From assembly GCA_018241505.1 (NCBI GenBank), contig JAFEDS010000006.1, forward strand, positions 1 to 64,000: DNA of 64,000 nt, written 5' to 3'. The position numbers and the translations under genes are program-made. Every line of letters starts with the position of its first letter. Within the stretch, counting starts at the first letter, position 1. The DNA is from Pseudomonadota bacterium (lineage in GTDB: Bacteria; Pseudomonadota; Gammaproteobacteria; Steroidobacterales; Steroidobacteraceae). Under the pieces are notes generated by a model, which worked only from the letters and a program-made list of their open reading frames with translations, was not told the origin of the DNA and ran no database searches. Shown one piece after another: positions 22,047 through 36,469 of this stretch.

Positions 22047-22370
22047 ATGAGCGGATTTCCACTACCAAAGCCCGCCGCCCGCGCCCTGTCGAAGCTGGGG
22101 CGGGACCTGTCGCTCGCTCGGCGACGGCGCCGTCTATCGCAGGCTTCCCTCGCTGAGCGAAGCGGGATTGGGCTCAACACCGTCCGGCGTTTGGAGCAGG
22201 ACGCATCGAGCGGCTCGATCGAGCATCTGGCTCGCGTCCTTTACGTACTCGGTGAGATCGAACGGCTCGAGAGACTTCTGGACACCGGGACCGATGAAGT
22301 TGGTCTCGTCATGATGGACGAGGATCTGCCGCAGCGCGTCCGGCCTCGACAAACGAAGGGGGCGATGTGA
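22047..22370 (+). CDS. HipB-like XRE-family antitoxin / repressor
   Basis: 107 residues. A helix-turn-helix of XRE type spans about residues 25-75: LARRRRRLSQASLAERSGIG, then NTVRRLEQDASSGSIEHLARVL. The C-terminal tail is short and charged. The stop overlaps the GTG start of the kinase gene (GTGA). Gene order and length fit a HipB antitoxin that binds the operators upstream and the HipA partner. Confidence 0.85.
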   Translation: MSGFPLPKPAARALSKLGRDLSLARRRRRLSQASLAERSGIGLNTVRRLEQDASSGSIEHLARVLYVLGEIERLERLLDTGTDEVGLVMMDEDLPQRVRPRQTKGAM

Positions 22371-23647
22371 GCGCACAACCCACCAAGCACCAAGCGCAGA
22401 TAGTGATCGGCGCAAAAGCGGTGCCGGTTGGCGAGCTCACGTTTGTGCGCGATGGTCGACGCGCATACTCGGGGTTCTCGTACGCGACTGAGTGGCTCCG
22501 CTCGCGCGACGGCTTTGAGATTTCGCCGGATCTGCCGAAGCGCGAGGGATTCGTGACACGGCGTGCGCCGACCGATCATGATTCGGTGTTCCCGTTTGCA
22601 ATCGCCGATACTGCGCCGGACGCGTGGGGCAAACGCATCATCAACCGCGCTCACGCGAAGCGTCGTGCTAAAGACCCGAAGCTCTCGCCCCTGACTGAGT
22701 TCGATTACCTCGCATCGGTCGATGACTTCAGTCGCATCGGCGCACTACGCCTCGTCGATGCGGAGGGTCAATTCCTGCGGTCCGGCGCGCAATACCGCAC
22801 GCCCCAACTCATCGACCTCAGCAGGATCGCGGCTGCCGCACACAAGGTTGAAAAGGGAACAGAGACAGCGGCGGACCTTCAGTACCTGCAGGGAAAGGCG
22901 ACATCGCTTGGCGGATTGCGGCCCAAGTCCACCGTTCTCGAGGAGGATGGTGCGCTTGCGATCGGTAAATTCGCTAGCGTCAAGGACGAACGCTCGATCG
23001 TCCGTGGCGAAGTGCTTGCACTCAGGCTCGTCGCGCACGCCGGCGCTCAGGCCGCGCACGCGCGTGTTGTCACAATCGAAGGCACCGACGTTGCCGTGAT
23101 CCGTCGCTTTGATCGGGATCCTGATGGCTCGCGAATGCCGTATCTCTCCGGCGGCTCCCTGCTGCAGGCACGTCGCGACGAGGATCGTGCGTACACGGAA
23201 CTCGCCGATGCAATCCGTCGGATAGGTGCCGCACCGACCGATGACGTGCGGGAACTCTGGCGACGTCTGGTAATCAACCTCTTGATCACGAATGTCGATG
23301 ATCATCTGTGGAACGTCGGCTTTCTCTACGCCGGCGATGGGAAATGGCGCCTGGCGCCCGCCTTTGACGTGAACCCATTCCCCGAAAAGGCGCGCGAATC
23401 GAAGACCTGGCTCAGCGAGGCCTCCGGACCGATCACTTCGCTCCAACAGTTGCTCGCCGACGCGCCCTACTTCGGCTTCACGCGTGCTGAGGCCGAGACA
23501 GCCGCTCACGGTGTTGCAACACGGTTGGCTCAGTGGAAGGAGATTGCCGCGTCCAAGGATGTAGGACTGAGCGAGACTGAGGTCGCTGAGCTCGCACCCG
23601 CGTTCGAACATGCCGATGCGCAAGCAGCGCTCGCATTGCCACATTAG
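22367..23647 (+). CDS. HipA-family serine/threonine kinase toxin
   Basis: 426 residues. The N-terminal HipA domain is followed by the kinase-like C-domain with the catalytic/metal segment LLITNVDDHLWNVGFLY and LAPAFDVNP. Characterised HipA kinases phosphorylate GltX or other aminoacyl-tRNA synthetases and cause growth arrest; the target here is unknown. Translation is coupled to the upstream antitoxin through a GTG start. A fragment of a different HipA lies at 29890-30243. Confidence 0.9.
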   Translation: MSAQPTKHQAQIVIGAKAVPVGELTFVRDGRRAYSGFSYATEWLRSRDGFEISPDLPKREGFVTRRAPTDHDSVFPFAIADTAPDAWGKRIINRAHAKRRAKDPKLSPLTEFDYLASVDDFSRIGALRLVDAEGQFLRSGAQYRTPQLIDLSRIAAAAHKVEKGTETAADLQYLQGKATSLGGLRPKSTVLEEDGALAIGKFASVKDERSIVRGEVLALRLVAHAGAQAAHARVVTIEGTDVAVIRRFDRDPDGSRMPYLSGGSLLQARRDEDRAYTELADAIRRIGAAPTDDVRELWRRLVINLLITNVDDHLWNVGFLYAGDGKWRLAPAFDVNPFPEKARESKTWLSEASGPITSLQQLLADAPYFGFTRAEAETAAHGVATRLAQWKEIAASKDVGLSETEVAELAPAFEHADAQAALALPH

Positions 23648-25890: not shown

Positions 25891-26025
25891 GTTGTCGCCG
25901 ATGTGCTGTGGACTATGAACTCGCCTGAGCTCTATCTGCTGCTGGCCGGACAGCGCGGCTGGTCGGCGCAGGAATTCGGGTCATGGTTGACTGATGCGTG
26001 GATCCGGTTGTTGCTGCAAGGCTGA
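25891..26025 (+). pseudogene. Remnant of a TetR-family regulator C-terminus
   Basis: The last 44 codons, containing VLWTMNSPELYLLLAGQRGW and ending SWLTDAWIRLLLQG, match the usual end of TetR regulators (pattern SPExYxLLxxxRGWSxxxxxxWLxDxxxRLLL). No helix-turn-helix or remaining body precedes it. Together with the membrane-protein remnant on the opposite strand it marks an eroded TetR/target pair. Confidence 0.5.
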
Positions 26026-26045
26026 CAATTGGCAGATGGTTGCGA

Positions 26046-27008
26046 TTAAACCGACTGCCGCTGCCGCGTCCGCCACTGGCTGGGCGAGACCCCAACTGCC
26101 TTTTTAAAGGCGCGACTGAAGGCTGCCTCCGACTCGTAGCCGACCCGGCTGGCGACCGCCGCGACTCCCTCGGTCGTACTGCACAGACGATTGGCGGCGA
26201 GTTGCATTCGCCAACTGCTGAGGTATTGCATCGGAGGCTGACCTACAAACTGGTTGAAGCGCTCCGCAAGCGCGGATCTCGAGAGCGCCACATGCTTGGC
26301 GAGCGACTCGAGTGTCCACGACCGCGCCGGATCGCCGTGAAGGGATGTCAGGGCCTTGCCGACGAAGGGATCGTGCAGTCCAGAAAGCCAGTTGTTCCTG
26401 TCGGCAGGCAGGTTCTCCAGATAGCGCCGGATCGCATCAACGAACATGAGCTCGCTGATTCGGTTGAGAACACCGGCGCCGCCCAATCTCGAGTCCCTGG
26501 ACTCTGCGAGCGCGAACTTGAAGTAGGCTCCGAGCGGCCCGTTCAGATGATCCCCGAGGCGGAATACCCTTGGCAGTGCAGCCAACATCGGGTTGTATGG
26601 CCGCGCATCGCAGCCAACAAATCCGCAGACGAAGTGGGCGCTTGCTGTTCCACTACCTCCGACGGCGATTGACACAGGCACTCGGCCGTCCTTCGGCATG
26701 CGATACATCTGCATCTCCGGCGCGCGCCGCAGACCCGGGGCACTCGAAAGCACGTGCCCGTCGCCGTGCGGCAACACGACGATGTCGCCCGCAACGAGTT
26801 GCATGTCAGGCTCGTTATCGAGGCGAATCCAACACGTGCCCTCCAGTATCAGGTGATACGAAACGAGGTGTTCCGATCCGGGGAGCATTGCGGCTACGAC
26901 TGACGGGCCCCATGGCGTCTCGGCGACCCACGGATCGGTCGCCTGAACATCAAAGAAGAAGGCCCCTGTGAGCCGTACAGCACGCAACACATCGGATAAA
27001 GGGTCCAT
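26046..27008 (-). CDS. AraC family regulator with N-terminal cupin domain
   Basis: 320 residues. An N-terminal cupin sensor (LVAGDIVVLPHGDGHVL) is followed by the C-terminal double helix-turn-helix of AraC type: LESLAKHVALSRSALAERFN and VAAVASRVGYESEAAFSRAF, ending FKKAVGVSPSQWR. It is divergent from the GFA-family gene at 27130, which is a possible target. The ligand is unknown. Confidence 0.9.
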   Translation of the reverse strand: MDPLSDVLRAVRLTGAFFFDVQATDPWVAETPWGPSVVAAMLPGSEHLVSYHLILEGTCWIRLDNEPDMQLVAGDIVVLPHGDGHVLSSAPGLRRAPEMQMYRMPKDGRVPVSIAVGGSGTASAHFVCGFVGCDARPYNPMLAALPRVFRLGDHLNGPLGAYFKFALAESRDSRLGGAGVLNRISELMFVDAIRRYLENLPADRNNWLSGLHDPFVGKALTSLHGDPARSWTLESLAKHVALSRSALAERFNQFVGQPPMQYLSSWRMQLAANRLCSTTEGVAAVASRVGYESEAAFSRAFKKAVGVSPSQWRTRQRQSV

Positions 27009-27129
27009 AGCTCACTCCGCTGGACGATTGAGCATGAGAGCCGGTAGGCCGGTCATTCGCCTGAATCGCTGCGCCCGGTAACCTGACCCCCTGAGAGTTG
27101 CAGTCCCAAAGCATGAAGGAGAGCGATAT

Positions 27130-27552
27130 ATGGTACACGCGGGCCGGTGTTTTTGCGGCGAAGTCGAATTCGAAGTCCAAGGAAAGCCGGTCGCAATGGG
27201 CTATTGCCATTGCGAGTCATGTCGGGCGTGGGCGGCGGCCCCGGTGAACGCCTTCAGTCTGTGGAAGCCGGCCGAACTCACGATTCGCCGGGGCGCGGCC
27301 AGCATTGGAGCATTCAGCAAGACCGCGAACAGTGTGCGCAAGTGGTGCACCCGGTGTGGCGGCCACCTGTTTACCGATCACCCAGGCTGGGATCTCGTCG
27401 ACATCTATGCGGCGCTTCTGCCATCGCTGCGTTTCGAAGCCGGCGTGCATGTCCATTATCAGGAGACGGTACTACGCATCCATGATGGCCAGCCGAAGAT
27501 GCAGGACACACCGCGGGAAATGGGGGGATCCGGACTCACCATGGCTGACTAG
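27130..27552 (+). CDS. GFA family protein (CENP-V/GFA zinc-binding domain)
   Basis: 140 residues. Zinc-binding cysteines appear as RCFCGEVEF, YCHCESCR and WCTRCGG, the standard order of the GFA domain (glutathione-dependent formaldehyde-activating enzyme family). Many members have no proven activity. A GAAGGAGAG site precedes the ATG. The gene is divergent from the AraC-type regulator. Confidence 0.88.
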   Translation: MVHAGRCFCGEVEFEVQGKPVAMGYCHCESCRAWAAAPVNAFSLWKPAELTIRRGAASIGAFSKTANSVRKWCTRCGGHLFTDHPGWDLVDIYAALLPSLRFEAGVHVHYQETVLRIHDGQPKMQDTPREMGGSGLTMAD

Positions 27553-27705
27553 GGGTGCCATCCTCATGAGGAACAGCAGAGCGGGTCGCGCAAACCACGG
27601 TCTCGAGCCAATCGCGTGATATAAGTGAGTGTTGGTGTCGTTGCCAGGCGCGAGAGTAGTGGCACACGCAACAACTTTCTCAACAAGCATCCGAGGAGGT
27701 CTGCA

Positions 27706-28083
27706 GTGACAAGGCAAATTATCCGAACGCCGGACGCACCCAACTCTGCACTGTACAGTCAGGCAGTCAAGGCAGGATCCACCGTGTACCTGTCGGGCAT
27801 CGTCGGAATCGATCCGAAGACGAACCAACTGGTGGGTGCGACCATCCAGGACCAGACACGCCAAGCGCTCATCAACTGCGGAAGCATTTTGCGCGCCGCC
27901 GGCGCGAAGTTTGAGAACGTCGTGGAAGTCCTCGTGCTGCTCGCGCACCCGAGCGACTTCGCGGGGCTCAATGAAGAGTATGCGAAGGACTTTCCGACCG
28001 ATGCGCCTGCTCGGGCAGTGGCGAAGCTTGGCGTCGAGGTTCCGAACGTTCTTGTGTCGATCAAGATGACCGCGGTCGTTTGA
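27706..28083 (+). CDS. RidA family protein (YjgF/YER057c/UK114)
   Basis: 125 residues from a GTG with GAGGAGG six bases upstream. The sequence has family landmarks AVKAGSTVYLSGIVGIDP, QTRQALINCGSILRAAGA, and the active-site region DAPARAVAKLGVEVPN with the conserved Arg. RidA proteins hydrolyse reactive enamine/imine intermediates produced by PLP enzymes. It is followed by a hairpin shared with the convergent hsp20 gene. Confidence 0.88.
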   Translation: MTRQIIRTPDAPNSALYSQAVKAGSTVYLSGIVGIDPKTNQLVGATIQDQTRQALINCGSILRAAGAKFENVVEVLVLLAHPSDFAGLNEEYAKDFPTDAPARAVAKLGVEVPNVLVSIKMTAVV

Positions 28084-28111
28084 CGAGGCGAAACAACATC
28101 CGTCCTGTTGG

Positions 28112-28144
28112 CACGCCCCTGGGCATGGCTGCGCCAGGGGCGTG
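28112..28144. terminator. Hairpin between convergent ridA-like and hsp20 genes
   Basis: A perfect 11-bp stem, CACGCCCCTGG at 28112-28122 with CCAGGGGCGTG at 28134-28144, encloses an 11-nt loop. It lies exactly between the two stops and probably ends both transcripts, though a long T tract is lacking. Confidence 0.6.
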
Positions 28145-28168
28145 GTTGTAGCTCACAAACGGGACGCG

Positions 28169-28615
28169 CTACTTCACGGTGATTCGACGCGGTTGTGCTC
28201 TCGGCTGCTTCCGGATCACAATTTCCAGGACGCCGTTACGACCTGCGGCGTTTACGTTCTCGGCATCCGCTGTATCCGGGAGGATAAAGCGCCGATGGAA
28301 GCGTCCCGTGCGGCGCTCGATACGTTGTTGCTGAGGGTGGTCCGCCCCATTGGTGCCGGCGGACTGCTCCTCGCTCCGATTTCCAGAGACGGTCAAGACT
28401 CCGTTGTCCAGGGTAATCTCCACATCCTTCGGTTCAACACCCGGCACGTCCAGGAGCAGTTGGAAGCGATCCGGGTATTCGCGTACATCCACCGCCGGAC
28501 TCCACTCCGATGTTGCGCTGTTGCCCTCGGTTTCGTTCAGATTCCCAAAGACACGATTGATCTCGTTTTGCAATTGCGACACTACGTTCCAGGGTTCATA
28601 ACGTGTAACAGCCAT
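28169..28615 (-). CDS. Hsp20 / small heat-shock protein
   Basis: 148 residues with a complete alpha-crystallin domain: SPAVDVREYPDRFQLLLDVP, GVEPKDVEITLDNGVLTVSG, RRTGRFHRRFILPD and the GVLEIVIRK strand. The N-terminal MAVTRYEPWNVVSQLQNEI is typical of this subgroup. It is an ATP-independent holdase. GAGGAGGA precedes the ATG, and a sigma-32 promoter lies about 70 bp upstream. It is divergent from the CIRCE-controlled groESL relic. Confidence 0.93.
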   Translation of the reverse strand: MAVTRYEPWNVVSQLQNEINRVFGNLNETEGNSATSEWSPAVDVREYPDRFQLLLDVPGVEPKDVEITLDNGVLTVSGNRSEEQSAGTNGADHPQQQRIERRTGRFHRRFILPDTADAENVNAAGRNGVLEIVIRKQPRAQPRRITVK

Positions 28616-28691
28616 GACTCATGTCCTCCTCTGGTTGGCACGCTGTCCTCGAGGCGATGTCTGAAACAAACACACGACTCTCTGGGGCGCC

Positions 28692-28719
28692 ATATAGGGC
28701 GTGCCCGATCACCTTCAAG
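28692..28719 (-). promoter_or_regulatory. Sigma-32 (heat-shock) promoter for hsp20
   Basis: On the minus strand CTTGAA (28719-28714), a 14-bp spacer, then CCCTATAT (28699-28692). The sigma-32 consensus is CTTGAA, 13-15 bp, CCCCATNT; seven of the eight -10 positions agree. The start would be near 28685. Confidence 0.75.
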
Positions 28720-28786
28720 AGGACGCCCGCTCATTTTTTTTCTGATCCGGGTTACCCTCTTGCAGATTTCTCCGCCATGAATATGA

Positions 28787-28813
28787 TTGGCACTCGTGCA
28801 TGCCGAGTGCTAA
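28787..28813 (+). promoter_or_regulatory. CIRCE element (HrcA operator)
   Basis: TTGGCACTC, 9 nt, GAGTGCTAA matches the CIRCE consensus (TTAGCACTC-N9-GAGTGCTAA) at 17 of 18 positions. TATGAT at 28782-28787 with TTGCAG 16 bp upstream gives a housekeeping-type promoter overlapped by the operator. This is the standard control region of groESL, but the genes it controls here are gutted. Confidence 0.85.
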
Positions 28814-28857
28814 ACCGGCAGGTGAACCCCTTTATATTCAAATACATAGGAGGTACC

Positions 28858-28935
28858 GTGAACATCCGTCCATTGCACGACCGGGTTGTCGTGAAGCGCG
28901 AGGACGAGGTCATGGCGGTCATCGAGCGGCAATAA
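28858..28935 (+). pseudogene. groS: groES relic with internal deletion
   Basis: A 25-codon frame begins with the exact GroES N-terminus MNIRPLHDRVVVKR and continues in frame as EDEVMAVIERQ, which is the GroES C-terminus (MREDDIMAVIE pattern). About 70 codons between them are missing. AGGAGG is correctly placed before the GTG start, and CIRCE lies 45 bp upstream. The product cannot form a co-chaperonin; the 25-residue peptide may still be translated. Confidence 0.85.
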
Positions 28936-28990
28936 CCCCCAACAGTTTTCAACCTGACACCCTCAACCATTATTTATTGGAGGACGAGTA

Positions 28991-29097
28991 ATGGCTGGCA
29001 AAGAAGTGAGCCGTGAAGGCGACCCTGGGCCCCAATGCGATCGAAGAAAGCGCGTGTTGAGGACGCCCTTCATGCCACCGGAGACTTTGACATGTGA
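28991..29097 (+). pseudogene. groL: groEL relic with several internal deletions
   Basis: Directly after the groES relic, TTGGAGGACGAGTA precedes ATG 28991. MAGKEV is the GroEL start. In the next frame AVKATLGPN matches GroEL near residue 35. In a third frame MRSKKARVEDALHAT matches the segment near residue 390, followed by GDFDM and TGA, a plausible C-terminus. At least three deletion joints therefore compress about 1.6 kb to 107 bp. Read from the ATG, a 41-codon out-of-frame peptide ends at 29116. Confidence 0.8.
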
Positions 29098-29104
29098 CCC
29101 AAAG

Positions 29105-29128
29105 GGCGGCGGGTGAATGCCCGCCGCC
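29105..29128 (+). terminator. Hairpin at the end of the groEL relic
   Basis: GGCGGCGGG (29105-29113) pairs perfectly with CCCGCCGCC (29120-29128) around a 6-nt loop. Its place just after the relic stop suggests it is the old groESL terminator; no T tract follows. Confidence 0.5.
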
Positions 29129-29172
29129 TCGACCTGGTGTATGCAACACATCGAATTGTGGAGGACAGTGCG

Positions 29173-29307
29173 ATGGACACACGCCGTTTTCGTCATCACT
29201 CACGGTCCGTTGAGGCTTTTCGCTGGCTCGGTTGGACAATGCTCATGATGTTTGTGTTGGTGCAGGCTGCACACGCGGCAGCGGGGATACGCGAAGGCTG
29301 GCCATAG
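29173..29307 (+). CDS. Possible 44-residue membrane peptide (uncertain)
   Basis: An ATG frame with GTGGAGGAC upstream encodes a basic N-terminus and one hydrophobic segment (WLGWTMLMMFVLVQAAHAAA) resembling a signal peptide or anchor, then stops. It sits between two gene relics and is probably a truncated leader, but a small membrane protein is possible. Confidence 0.3.
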   Translation: MDTRRFRHHSRSVEAFRWLGWTMLMMFVLVQAAHAAAGIREGWP

Positions 29308-29310
29308 CGC

Positions 29311-29808
29311 AACGGGGTGGGCATCCCTGCGGGACTCTTGCCGCGCATCTTCGAGCTGTTCGTGCAGAACAACCGCCCGCTCGATCGGTCGCAAGGTGGC
29401 CTGGGTATCGGGCTGTCGGTACGAGAGGAGCAGACCGAGCAGGCTCTCGCGCGACGACGTGTACTCATTGTGGACGACAACGCCGATTCGGCAGATTCGC
29501 TCGCCATGATCCTGAATCATTTCGGCCATCGGGCAAAGCCGGTGTACACCGGGGCGGATGCGCTGGTGCGAGCCGCCGAATTCGATCCCGAGTTTGTTCT
29601 TCTCGACATCGGCCTGCCCGGCATTGACGGGTACGAAGTCGCGAGGCAACTGAAAGGGCGCGGCGCCAATGCGCGGCTCATCGCACTTACCGGATACGGT
29701 CAGCCCGAGGATGTTCGCCGGGCTCGGGAGGCTGGTTTCGACCGGCACCTGGTGAAACCTGTGGATTTGCAGCGGTTGCTACGAGAGCTGAGGAGCGTGG
29801 AAAGGTGA
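29311..29808 (+). pseudogene. Remnant of a hybrid sensor histidine kinase with intact receiver domain
   Basis: The frame enters abruptly at NGVGIPAGLLPRIFELFVQ (ATPase G1 box) and RSQGGLGIGLS (G2 box), then jumps to a receiver domain: VLIVDDNADSADS, phospho-acceptor in VLLDIGLPGIDGYEVAR, ALTGYG and HLVKPVDL. The sensor, the histidine phospho-acceptor domain and the end of the ATPase are missing, and a stop codon lies immediately upstream of the fragment. A GTG at 29317 could still allow a 163-residue receiver-containing product. Confidence 0.75.
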
Positions 29809-29889
29809 GCGTGGGAGGCGAAGCAATCGAATGCCGACCGATTCGGTTCCGCAGTCACCGCCCAGGGTGTTGAAGAAGGACTCCTCAAC

Positions 29890-30243
29890 ATGAGCGGACT
29901 GTTGGAAGTCTGGCTCGATAGCGACCTCTCTGCGCCTTGTCAGGTGAACGGCTGGCGACTGGCACCGGCGTTTGATGTCAATCCAAACATCGATAAAGCC
30001 GATCATGTGCTGAACATCGACGATTCTGATAACCGACCGGGCGTGGAGCTGACTCTGAGTACAGCAACTTTCTATGGACTGCCCGAAGAGCGGGCGCTGA
30101 ACGTTGTTGAAGAAGTTGCCGCGGCCGTCGACAGGTGGCGGAACGTAGCCCAACGGCAGCATATTTCGCGGGCCGATGTCGAATTGACGGCGGCAGCTTT
30201 CAACGCCCATTCGGAATTCCGGAAGTCGCGGCGGCGGGTGTAG
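29890..30243 (+). pseudogene. Remnant of a second HipA-family kinase (C-terminal part)
   Basis: After about 20 unrelated codons the frame reads GWRLAPAFDVNPNIDKADHV, then NIDDSDNRPG and a helical end, all typical of the HipA C-terminus. The N-domain and catalytic loop are absent. It is distinct from the intact HipA at 22367-23647. No HipB gene is adjacent. Confidence 0.7.
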
Positions 30244-30346
30244 CAGATACTATCGGACTGCCAGGCAGGGCCCGGTGCCCCCCCCCATTCGCAAGCGGCT
30301 CGTAGCCTCAATCCGCCGCGATGGGCGTCCGGTGTTTTCTTCCGGG

Positions 30347-31258
30347 CTACCCGCTCGGCAGTGGAATCACCGCGCCCAAGCCGGCATGATCGAATCGCTC
30401 CTTGAACGTGGCGAGGAAGACGGCGAAGCCGAGCTCACTCGTGCAATGGGAGGGCGCCACACGCTCCACTTTCAGGTCCTCATGCAAGGTGCGCGCAACG
30501 CGCTCTACTTCCTCGCGCGGCGTCAACACAAGGTGGAAGCCACCGGTGACCGTATACAGGTGCGGGTCTATCTTTGTCGCCTGTTGAAGGATGTTCTCCA
30601 CGCCAGGATGCGAGCAGCCCACGATGACTGCCAGCCCTCGGGGCGTGCGTATTACAAGCGAGATTTCGTTCATCTCCTGAGTCCCCGGCTTGTGTGACTG
30701 CGTGCTGATCAGGAAGAAGCCGTGAAAGACTTCGGTGGTTTGTGACACGATTTGGAAGTTCGCCTGCTCCCACGGCGTACCTGACACCCAACGCTGTGGC
30801 GGCTTGCCTTCGTAATAGTGGAGATCGGCCGGAAGGCTGGGATCGCGTTCCAGAAAGCTGAGCGGCAAGCGCGCTTTAAAGAACGCGCCTTCCTGTGGAA
30901 CGTAGATCACGACGCTCGGATTCACCTTCAGAAGGTAAGCGAGCCCGGTCGTGTGATCGCCGTGTCGATGCGAGATGACCACCGCGTCCAGGTGCCTCAG
31001 GTCAATGCCGAGTTGCCTGACATTGTGCTCCAGAATGCCCGCGTCATTGCCGGTGTCAAAGAGGATGCGCTTGCCACCGTACTCAATCAGTGCAGCGTAG
31101 CCCCAGTCTTTGACGAGCTTGGAGGGGTTTCCGAAGGCGTCGTAAAGCACGGTGACTCGACTGGCCGACGATGCGGCCGTGGCCACGCGGGTGGGGGTGA
31201 GAGCGAGCGAGAGCAACAGGAGCACAGCAACCGCGCACGAGCGTGCGAGCTTATCCAT
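30347..31258 (-). CDS. Exported MBL-fold metallo-hydrolase
   Basis: 303 residues with a signal peptide (cleavage near RVATAASS). The metal site is complete: VISHRHGDHTTGL, VGCSHPGVENIL and a late His in GGFHLVLT/PSHCTSE. The layout resembles the group annotated as 7,8-dihydropterin-6-methyl-4-aminobenzene-phosphate synthase-like hydrolases, but the signal peptide indicates the periplasm and the substrate is unknown. ATG 31258 has GGAGG seven bases upstream; a GTG one codon earlier is too close to that site. Confidence 0.85.
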   Translation of the reverse strand: MDKLARSCAVAVLLLLSLALTPTRVATAASSASRVTVLYDAFGNPSKLVKDWGYAALIEYGGKRILFDTGNDAGILEHNVRQLGIDLRHLDAVVISHRHGDHTTGLAYLLKVNPSVVIYVPQEGAFFKARLPLSFLERDPSLPADLHYYEGKPPQRWVSGTPWEQANFQIVSQTTEVFHGFFLISTQSHKPGTQEMNEISLVIRTPRGLAVIVGCSHPGVENILQQATKIDPHLYTVTGGFHLVLTPREEVERVARTLHEDLKVERVAPSHCTSELGFAVFLATFKERFDHAGLGAVIPLPSG

Positions 31259-31492
31259 CACGGCACCTCCGAGCTTTCAGTGAACGGGGCACAGGTGTGT
31301 TCGAGGCTTTTAGCGTATGCCTCGCCGTCAATTGGAGCAACGAAGGCCCGCAACTAGGAGCCGACGGCCATGGGGACTGCCTTCCAGAACGCCTCGGACA
31401 ACGCCGTCGCAGCTCGCCCTCCGAAACGCATGCTGTCAAAATTCAGATGAATACCGTGATTGGTGAGCGAGCAATGAGGAGGCAGGAACACC

Positions 31493-32083
31493 GTGACCGT
31501 TGAACCCTTCTTCACGAAAATCCGATCCTATGCATCGCTTTCTGACGAGGCAGAGCAAGCATGGTCGATGCTTCTCGTACAAAGACACTATAAGAGGGAC
31601 GAGCCTTACATCGTCGCCGGTGCAGTACCGACAACGTTCGCCTTCGTGGTTGAGGGGCTGTTCTCACAACACTATGTCGGTCCGGAGGGCGACGTGGTGA
31701 TCAAGTACTTCTTCCCGGAGGGACGAATCGCTGCTTCCGTCAGCGCCACCTTGCTGGCACAACCCAGTCTTTTCGGGATCACCGCCATTGAGGACAGTAC
31801 CGTCCTCGAGTACGACTTCCCCGCCTTCAAGACACTGGTCGCCCGGTTCCCCGATATCGCGGCCTTCTACATTCGATACATGGAGCGCCACTGGATTATC
31901 GAGAAAGAACCAGCAGAAGTTGCGTTCCGCCGCGACGACGCGATGCAGCGCTACCGCGACTTCATTCGCAGAGAGCCCGACCTGCACAAGCGCCTGAAGC
32001 AGCATCACGTTGCGGCGTGGCTCGGGATCACGCCCGAGAGCCTGAGCCGCATCAGGAAAGCGATTGCCCTGGGTGTGGGTTGA
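31493..32083 (+). CDS. Crp/Fnr family transcriptional regulator
   Basis: 196 residues. A cyclic-nucleotide-binding-type beta roll (FVVEGLFSQHYVGPEGDVVI, YFFPEGRIAAS, ITAIEDSTVLEYD) leads to a long dimer helix and a short C-terminal helix-turn-helix (VAAWLGITPESLSRIRKAI). There is no FNR cysteine cluster. The start is GTG with AGGA upstream. It precedes a VOC-family gene in the same direction. Confidence 0.85.
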   Translation: MTVEPFFTKIRSYASLSDEAEQAWSMLLVQRHYKRDEPYIVAGAVPTTFAFVVEGLFSQHYVGPEGDVVIKYFFPEGRIAASVSATLLAQPSLFGITAIEDSTVLEYDFPAFKTLVARFPDIAAFYIRYMERHWIIEKEPAEVAFRRDDAMQRYRDFIRREPDLHKRLKQHHVAAWLGITPESLSRIRKAIALGVG

Positions 32084-32189
32084 CGGCTCAGCCGGCATTA
32101 CCAAACGTCAATGCGGCGAGAAGGCCCCGGCCGTACCTTTCTGACCCACGCGGGCGCGGGTGCTCGCGGCTTTCAGAAGGAGACCTCTC

Positions 32190-32597
32190 GTGAACCAATC
32201 GATCTTCGTGAACCTGCCTGTCACTGACCTCGCCCGATCCAAGCGCTTCTACGAAGCACTGGGATTCAAGCAGAACCCGAACTTTTCCGACGACACGGCG
32301 GCCTGCATGGTATGGAGCGAGGCGATCTACGTCATGCTGCTCACACACGCCAAGTGGCACACCTTCACCACCCGTCCCATCCCGCCCGACACGTCGAGCG
32401 AAGTTATGTTGGCGCTGTCCTGCGATAGTCGCTCCGTTGTCGACACTATGAACAAGGCCGCCGATGGGCACGGCGGCCGAGCCGACGTCAACCCGGTTCA
32501 AGACCTCGGCTTTCTGTACAACCGCAACTTTATCGACCCCGACGGCCATGTCTGGGAAGCGATGTGGATGGACCCGGCTGCGGTTCCTTCGAACTGA
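32190..32597 (+). CDS. VOC family protein (glyoxalase/bleomycin-resistance fold)
   Basis: 135 residues from a GTG with AAGGAG upstream. The two beta-alpha-beta-beta-beta halves are seen: SIFVNLPVTDLARSKRFYEA at the start and NRNFIDPDGHVWEAMWMDP at the end, with the late Glu in a metal-ligand position. Substrate unknown. Confidence 0.85.
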   Translation: MNQSIFVNLPVTDLARSKRFYEALGFKQNPNFSDDTAACMVWSEAIYVMLLTHAKWHTFTTRPIPPDTSSEVMLALSCDSRSVVDTMNKAADGHGGRADVNPVQDLGFLYNRNFIDPDGHVWEAMWMDPAAVPSN

Positions 32598-32689
32598 GTT
32601 GTCATGAAGGCATCTGTGCCAACCTGTGAGTGAGGACTGAACGTTTGCTTTGGGGAGGCGCCTGATCGAAAGGCCCTTACAGCGGAGGC

Positions 32690-33256
32690 TCAATTGAACT
32701 CGTTGAACCCCCGCCCACTCAAGATCATTGGCACACACTTATCTGCTCGAGCTATCCGCGTCTTCGACTGCTTCGCGCCCGAAACATGGAAGATGTACGA
32801 TTTCCTCCGTCCCGGCGTCAGGGCCTCGAACGCAGCCTTCAACTCCGGAGCCGCATTGAGCCTGACTTGCAACTCTTCGGGAACCACATACTCCGAAGCC
32901 TTTTTCAGGGGAACCTTTTTTCCCGACTCCTCGACCCGAATGGCTTCGCCGATGTAACTCCTGAGGGTCGGCCGCAAAGCCCCAACTTCCTCGAGAGAGG
33001 TGAATTTTATCCAGCGACCCGCCTGTGTGTGTTCTCCGATCTTTGTGAGGATCTGCTTCGGATCCTTCAGCAAGGCACCTTTGAAGAACGAGAGCGCGCA
33101 CGCATCCTTAAGTGGGATGATGATCGCCACGTTTTTTTCCTGGTGGGTGAAGCAGGGCTTGCCCCATTTCAACTCCTCGACGAGGCGGCAGCCGAGGACA
33201 ATCTTCCTCAGCGCGTCTATTTCCTTTTGCCACTTTTTCGCATACGGAACCTTCAT
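32690..33256 (-). CDS. YdeI/OmpD-associated, DUF1801-type protein
   Basis: 188 residues. The N-terminal half has the DUF1801 (YdhG-like) core: VEELKWGKPCFTHQEKNVAI, SFFKGALLKDP, WIKFTSLEEV. The C-terminal half is the YdeI helix bundle (KAAFEALTPGRRKSYIFHVS). The related Bacillus YdhG fold has been linked to iron delivery, but the role here is not known. AAGGAG lies before ATG 33256. Confidence 0.8.
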   Translation of the reverse strand: MKVPYAKKWQKEIDALRKIVLGCRLVEELKWGKPCFTHQEKNVAIIIPLKDACALSFFKGALLKDPKQILTKIGEHTQAGRWIKFTSLEEVGALRPTLRSYIGEAIRVEESGKKVPLKKASEYVVPEELQVRLNAAPELKAAFEALTPGRRKSYIFHVSGAKQSKTRIARADKCVPMILSGRGFNEFN

Positions 33257-35240: not shown

Positions 35241-36042
35241 TCACGGCCTTTCCGCAACGACCCTGCCGTTTTTCAACACATAGATCGGCGTCCTGTACAT
35301 TCCCGCAATTTTCCGTGCGTCTTTCCCCGCACGGCGTAGAGCTCGACCAACTCCATCTGCAAAATCCGGATTCCGACTCGATTCAGCCCCTATTTTCTCG
35401 TGTGTCAACTCGTCTCCAAGGACGTGTGGTTGGTTGCCGGAGTTGTCGAAGACTGCGCATCTGTCCGCTAATACGCGGTAGACCGTTTGACAGTTATCCA
35501 ACTTCTCGAGAATCTTCTAACGACATCGGCGCGTGGGACACTGTGGCCACCCTGGCGGACACGAGAGGCGATCCGCCGCAGGGCCAATTGACTGGTGCCG
35601 AACCGGATATATGCCAGTTCTATGCAACAACCTGCTTGCTTCCAAGTCCGAAGCCTGCGCACATAGCTCAGGCCGCTAAGCGTCGTCTCGAATGCGAAAT
35701 CGGACCCTTCAGCCGCCAAACGGTCCAACTCCCACAGTAACGTCCGGGCGGCGGCCTAGCCGCTAACTCAGGCCGGAGCGGCGACAACCCGCTCGCGATC
35801 AGGTCGGCATTCCTGAAGTGGATGACCCCGAGCTCGGGAAGATACCTGCGGGCAAAAGTCGTCTTTCCCGCGCCATTCGGTCCCGCAATCACGATGCATC
35901 TAGTACCTCGTAACTGAGTGCCCGTGGACTTCCCGCGCGAATCCGGCAGGTCGGACAAATACTTTGCAATGCGGGGAAGTGGACGGGAACTGACAGGAGT
36001 CAGAATGGTGCGGTGTCTGGAGGCGAGTTGAGGCGCGCGCAT
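35241..36042 (-). pseudogene. Frameshifted zeta-toxin-like P-loop kinase
   Basis: Three consecutive frames on the minus strand together encode one protein. They are [20 protein letters not shown] (Walker A) with [35 protein letters not shown] with VRQGGHSVPRADVVRRFSRS; and CQTVYRVLADRCAVFDNSG to the end. This is the order of zeta-toxin-like AAA kinases. Frame changes near 35755 and 35495 break it. The wild type would phosphorylate UDP-N-acetylglucosamine or another target. No epsilon-type antitoxin is adjacent. Confidence 0.8.
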
Positions 36043-36139: not shown

Positions 36140-36469
36140 ATGGCAACTTACTTCCTTCGGTCGATGCATATATCTCGGGGCAAGGGATCGCTTGCCACGC
36201 GAGCGGCTGCCTATCGGGCGGGTGAGAGGATCAAGGACGAGAGGACAGGAGAGACGTTCGAGCACTCGGATCGGCGGGACATAGCCTACAAGGAAGTTGT
36301 TCTGCCGCTGGAGCTGGAAGGACGCGCAGATATGGCTTGGACTCAGGGGGATGCCATGGAGCACGCAGGCGCGCGGCATGACTCGCGCACCGCGCGGGAG
36401 TGGCTCGTGCTCGTGCCGCCGGAGTTGAGTCCAGATCAACGTGTAGAGCTGGTTCGCACGTTCGCATGA
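36140..36469 (+). pseudogene. Truncated MobA/MobL family relaxase (N-terminus only)
   Basis: 109 codons begin MATYFLRSMHISRGKGSLAT, then AAAYRAGERIKDERTGETFE, EVVLPLELEGR and EWLVLVPPELSPDQRVELVR, the first quarter of MobA/MobL (Ti/IncQ-type) relaxases. The frame ends before the metal-binding histidines. It is a trace of a mobilisable plasmid or integrative element. Confidence 0.8.

Follow-up and report, generated by a model that had tools for sequence, protein, structure and literature searches.

The window analysed here, 64,000 nucleotides long (bases 1–64000 of contig C43 in a 7.88 Mb genome of 46 contigs that is 93.9% complete with 5.67% contamination), contains a groES–groEL pseudo-operon in which a predicted CIRCE operator is followed by fragments of the two genes, colinear but disabled by lesions (Table 1). 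The remnant is a clear and unusually legible gene fossil, most likely of an ordinary kind. We consider it very probable that an accessory CIRCE-controlled groESL operon, divergent from an hsp20 gene, fell out of use and that deletions between short direct repeats are now removing it.

Table 1. Features of the groESL remnant and of the genes around it (window coordinates).
Feature	Position	Strand	Description
Intact hsp20	28169..28615	-	148 aa; Pfam HSP20, E 4.3e-20; divergent from the remnant
Probable sigma-32-type hsp20 promoter	28692..28719	-	CTTGAAG, 13 bases, CCCTATAT; by eye
Probable promoter of the groESL remnant	28760..28787	+	TTGCAG at 28760, spacing 16, TATGAT at 28782; by eye
Predicted CIRCE operator	28787..28813	+	TTGGCACTC-N9-GAGTGCTAA; 17/18 arm bases
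groES Shine–Dalgarno site	28848..28853	+	AGGAGG; direct reading
groES remnant	28858..28935	+	First 14 residues joined in frame to the last 11; TAA stop codon
groEL Shine–Dalgarno site	28979..28984	+	GGAGGA; direct reading
groEL residues 1-6	28991..29008	+	MAGKEV; ATG at 28991
groEL residues about 27-33	29013..29033	+	VKATLGP; alignment
Ambiguous groEL stretch	29034..29051	+	AATGCGATCGAAGAAAGC; overlaps the residue-390 scrap; by-eye reading
groEL residues about 390-401	29044..29079	+	KKARVEDALHAT; alignment
groEL C-terminus	29080..29097	+	GDFDM, stop TGA; comparison with complete groEL ends
Strong hairpin 3' of groEL	29104..29129	+	11 pairs, wobbles included; without a T-run
Probable hybrid histidine kinase remnant	29173..29808	+	Leader ORF, HATPase_c scrap, receiver domain
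hipA tail behind its own ATG	29890..30243	+	HipA_C 149-213 of 213

The sequence-only reading that drew attention to this locus had listed a CIRCE element with 17 of 18 arm bases, correct Shine–Dalgarno sites and a GroES N-terminus joined in frame to its C-terminus; all of these held, and a GTG start codon for groES can be added. Relative to the canonical CIRCE arms TTAGCACTC-N9-GAGTGCTAA, the remnant site deviates by one base, as against two mismatches at the working groESL copy on contig C44. Shuffles of a pattern that was fitted to the remnant site itself, with up to 3 mismatches allowed, gave a mean of 0.06 matches per window. In the whole genome, TTRGCACTC-N9-GAGTGCTAA with up to 2 mismatches matches three places, namely the remnant, C44:896 (the working groESL) and C43:210730 (upstream of a probable rpoH), and no place matches the same pattern read backwards. 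The C43:210730 site (L012, 10731–10757) is perfect and stands immediately upstream of a frame that looks like rpoH; the heat-shock sigma factor may therefore be under HrcA repression. As read by eye, the promoter of the remnant mirrors the TTGAAT-16-TATCAT of the working copy; a promoter scan of 28600–29200 returned no sites. In both copies CIRCE has the same layout, overlapping the −10 hexamer by one base.

The groES remnant is a single open frame of 25 codons, VNIRPLHDRVVVKR+EDEVMAVIERQ-stop, and the chance that such a frame stays open after a deletion is 1 in 3. GroEL had been described as reduced to scraps followed by a hairpin, and that is the state in which we found it (residues 1–6, about 27–33, about 390–401 and the C-terminus, with the 11-pair hairpin beyond). 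Alignment with the groESL genes of the same genome and of relatives, as had been suggested, matched the scraps to GroES and GroEL, in agreement with their order and orientation. The frame opened by the groEL ATG departs from groEL past MAGKEV and terminates at 29116; the VKATLGP and KKARVEDALHAT scraps are read in other frames. The ambiguous stretch that follows VKATLGP can be read as residues about 37–42 (NAIEES) or, in part, as sequence leading into the residue-390 scrap. None of the 11 complete groEL ends compared has the GDFDM ending. Beyond it, the segment 29090–29140 folds with −25.9 kcal/mol (z −3.0; 1 of 200 shuffles was equally good); the hairpin is not among the sites listed by a terminator scan, and an Rfam search of 26000–33000 with E up to 0.5 gave no matches.

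A Pfam search of the same genome detected no full-length Cpn10 or Cpn60 frames at the remnant locus. The single groES that it found lies on C44, and Cpn60 is represented by a complete gene on C13 and by contig-edge parts on C20 and C44, which look like the halves of one gene. The working groESL is broken inside groEL across two contig ends, the starts of C44 and C20. The genome also encodes hrcA (C12:114720–115388, E 7.1e-67, free of stops). Given a working groESL with CIRCE, a CIRCE at the probable rpoH and hrcA elsewhere, the lost copy was probably redundant.

Over five islands comprising 48 codons, the remnant shares with the working copy 111 of 144 bases (77%) and 43 of 48 residues (both start codons scored as Met); the longest exact run between them is 12 bases, and that with any intact groESL compared is at most 18. 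The remnant is thus a diverged paralog rather than a misassembly of the working operon, and the excess of residue over base identity indicates that the divergence mostly arose under selection. These figures also bear on whether the locus is a chimera or collapse of genuine full-length groESL copies. The division of the working operon between C44 and C20 suggests that the assembler may have had difficulty with chaperonin genes, and the contamination estimate points the same way, but exact runs of this length would be too short for the usual assembly-graph joins, and the remnant owns a distinct promoter, CIRCE spacer and hairpin. We therefore regard an artefact as very unlikely; collapse of a working operon, named at the outset as an outcome that would undo the claim, does not appear to have occurred, judging by the look of these runs.

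For comparison with intact genes, 84 loci were entered, of which 65–79 per island exceeded 70% identity and the others were dropped; some of these loci contain the same gene, and short islands may match by chance (as L006 does in the 27–33 island). Silent versus changing codon differences numbered 476:4 in the residue-390 island, 409:139 at the groES start, 224:47 in the 27–33 island, 207:205 at the groES end and 101:115 at the groEL start, where 76% of random single changes would be expected to be changing. Such ratios signify strong constraint in three islands and weak constraint in two, at the variable ends of the proteins. That the groES end and the groEL start show no predominance of silent changes counts against our preferred explanation. 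The pattern mostly reflects the intact genes' own history; it constrains the decay without giving it a date. The death of the operon was probably recent.

A look for short direct repeats at the joints had been suggested, and its outcome differed from joint to joint. Slippage was judged by proxy in intact homologues in place of the true parent, and the counts are of sequences, not species. At the groES joint the repeat at the joined positions averages 3.3 bases in 67 intact sequences, compared with 1.06 at the controls, which were neighbouring in-register position pairs; one of the 67 (L104, 12 bases) has a repeat of at least 9 bases. At the groEL joint 41/389, measurable in 56 of 60 intact sequences, the average is 4.6 bases versus 0.94 in the control, and 26 of the 56 have a repeat of at least 7 bases versus 0.32% of control pairs; this joint is placed on the assumption that 29034–29051 represents residues about 37–42, and the other reading of that stretch shifts it. 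At the C-terminal groEL joint no consistent repeat was found among the 11 complete ends, and the case there is not convincing. The joint at residues 6/27 of groEL was looked at by eye alone.

The crowding of four or five joints within 340 bases, together with 48 island codons in which no substitution looks clearly disabling by eye, would also fit a single complex event (template switching or a repair burst) that created all joints together. We consider this highly unlikely, as two joints coincide with repeats of intact homologues, which is what independent slippage predicts, and the neighbouring genes seem to carry deletions of their own. The deletions in the remnant would then be separate events.

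The genes around the remnant are in mixed condition. The divergent hsp20 is 70–82% identical to its counterparts in the five nearest named relatives, all of them metagenome genomes (labelled Gammaproteobacteria in four cases and Proteobacteria in the fifth). Its probable promoter was read by eye against the sigma-32 consensus, and L056 has CTTGAAG at a similar distance upstream of its own hsp20. Two genes downstream of the remnant look truncated. In the kinase remnant, the receiver domain is nearly entire (Response_reg 1–110 of 111, E 7e-22), the HATPase_c scrap covers profile positions 45–85 of 111 (E 1.9e-4, under the cut-off), and the leader ORF (to 29307), which has no family match, would belong to the same gene. 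The hipA tail retains only the last 65 positions of the HipA_C profile (E 1.1e-5, under the cut-off), and its residues 20–115 are 58% identical to a 345-aa HipA frame in genome G008; the window also has a longer hipA-like frame at 22367–23647. The genes between and past the truncated ones appear whole. Further along, 36140–36469 encodes an N-terminal piece of a MobA/MobL relaxase (profile 3–93 of 224) that stops early and is a sign of an old mobile element, and the minus strand of 35800–35920 resembles, by eye, a fragment of a zeta-toxin-like protein with its ATP-binding P-loop. The presence of several truncated genes in one stretch speaks for decay rather than for a special device. With 584 query frames, a scan for genes broken by the loss of their middles, blind to islands as short as those of the remnant, found none in 480 kb of this genome or in 400 kb of G001.

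The remnant DNA has matches in 8 of 60 relatives; within the order 55 of 396 genomes matched, and within the class 69 of 369. The three sets overlap, each count includes the genome itself, and very near genomes have possibly been left out. Apart from the genome's own, the matches are short islands (about 26–71 bases, 74–96% identity) that fall, by query position, at either end of groES, in the groEL islands, in CIRCE or, once, in the hairpin. In the three sets of genomes we saw no similar remnant: no match spans a joint together with most of the remnant, as far as the matches were opened. Nor was a direct parent found among these genomes, plasmids or phages; the phage search gave no match, and of two plasmid searches the first gave none and the other three records with 29–36-base matches. 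The five nearest hsp20 neighbourhoods (L054–L058) lack groES as well as any CIRCE within 3 mismatches, and gene order is not conserved; in L054 a distant groEL (53–56% identical to the working groEL) lies about 5 kb from hsp20. In the portion of the literature covered, a search for a groESL pseudogene with CIRCE had as its sole match the genome annotation of Streptococcus pneumoniae D39, and the statement reaches no wider than that portion.

These searches bear on a retained function. The sequence-only reading had offered either stepwise deletion decay or an HrcA-titrating decoy with short peptides. Under the latter, CIRCE and a short transcript would serve as an HrcA sink, or peptides from the ends of GroES and GroEL would be made under heat shock. 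The conserved operator, both Shine–Dalgarno sites and the intact groES frame are compatible with such a role, as is a genome that has hrcA and just two further CIRCE sites at up to 2 mismatches. Against it stand the lack of any similar remnant in relatives, the broken groEL frame, a groES frame that chance would leave open one time in three, and neighbours that appear decayed too; one added site would also titrate little. Retention of the remnant for regulation is accordingly unsupported and highly unlikely, and we find it just as doubtful that the hollowed operon is kept as a heat-inducible CIRCE decoy that fine-tunes how HrcA represses groESL and rpoH, perhaps along with a 25-residue peptide of the two GroES ends. 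Stepwise decay, by contrast, gains support from the alignment of the scraps, the homologue direct repeats at two joints and the truncated look of two neighbours.

The nearest counterparts that we found are two groESL loci in other genomes. In the first (G033:C92; L158, 3800–6550), groES–groEL is likewise divergent from an hsp20 and, by eye, an inverted GC-rich repeat follows groEL as at the remnant; unlike there, the genes are complete, CIRCE is absent at up to 4 mismatches and the hsp20 is only 32% identical. The second (G043:C106; L163), in a genome with an additional groES on its contig C5, has a 1-mismatch CIRCE about 100 bases upstream of groES, as does the remnant in kind, but its groES is complete, its groEL is matched over most of its length and no hsp20 match occurs in the 10 kb examined. 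Control of groESL by HrcA and CIRCE is well established. Operons of this type, including that on C44, have, like the remnant, the operator on the −10 element followed by a Shine–Dalgarno site, groES and groEL, whereas the full-length product has been lost in the remnant. Bacterial pseudogenes are known to erode by deletions at short direct repeats, and the remnant resembles them in its spared ends and in its probable microhomology deletions; it differs from the usual case in that two adjoining genes were hollowed with the signals between them preserved.

Under the preferred explanation, a spare groES–groEL operon under CIRCE, divergent from hsp20, would have become useless, after which deletions between short direct repeats would excise the middles of its genes. 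Since every deletion fell inside coding sequence, the promoter, operator, ribosome-binding sites, gene ends and hairpin survive. The operon is presumably dead; HrcA binding and transcription may persist at the locus, to no effect. The remnant would thus offer a clean snapshot of a spare chaperonin operon vanishing, in which control signals outlast the product and deletions occur inside the genes, at repeats common to many intact groEL genes. If its CIRCE still binds HrcA, the locus would provide a natural test of operator titration.
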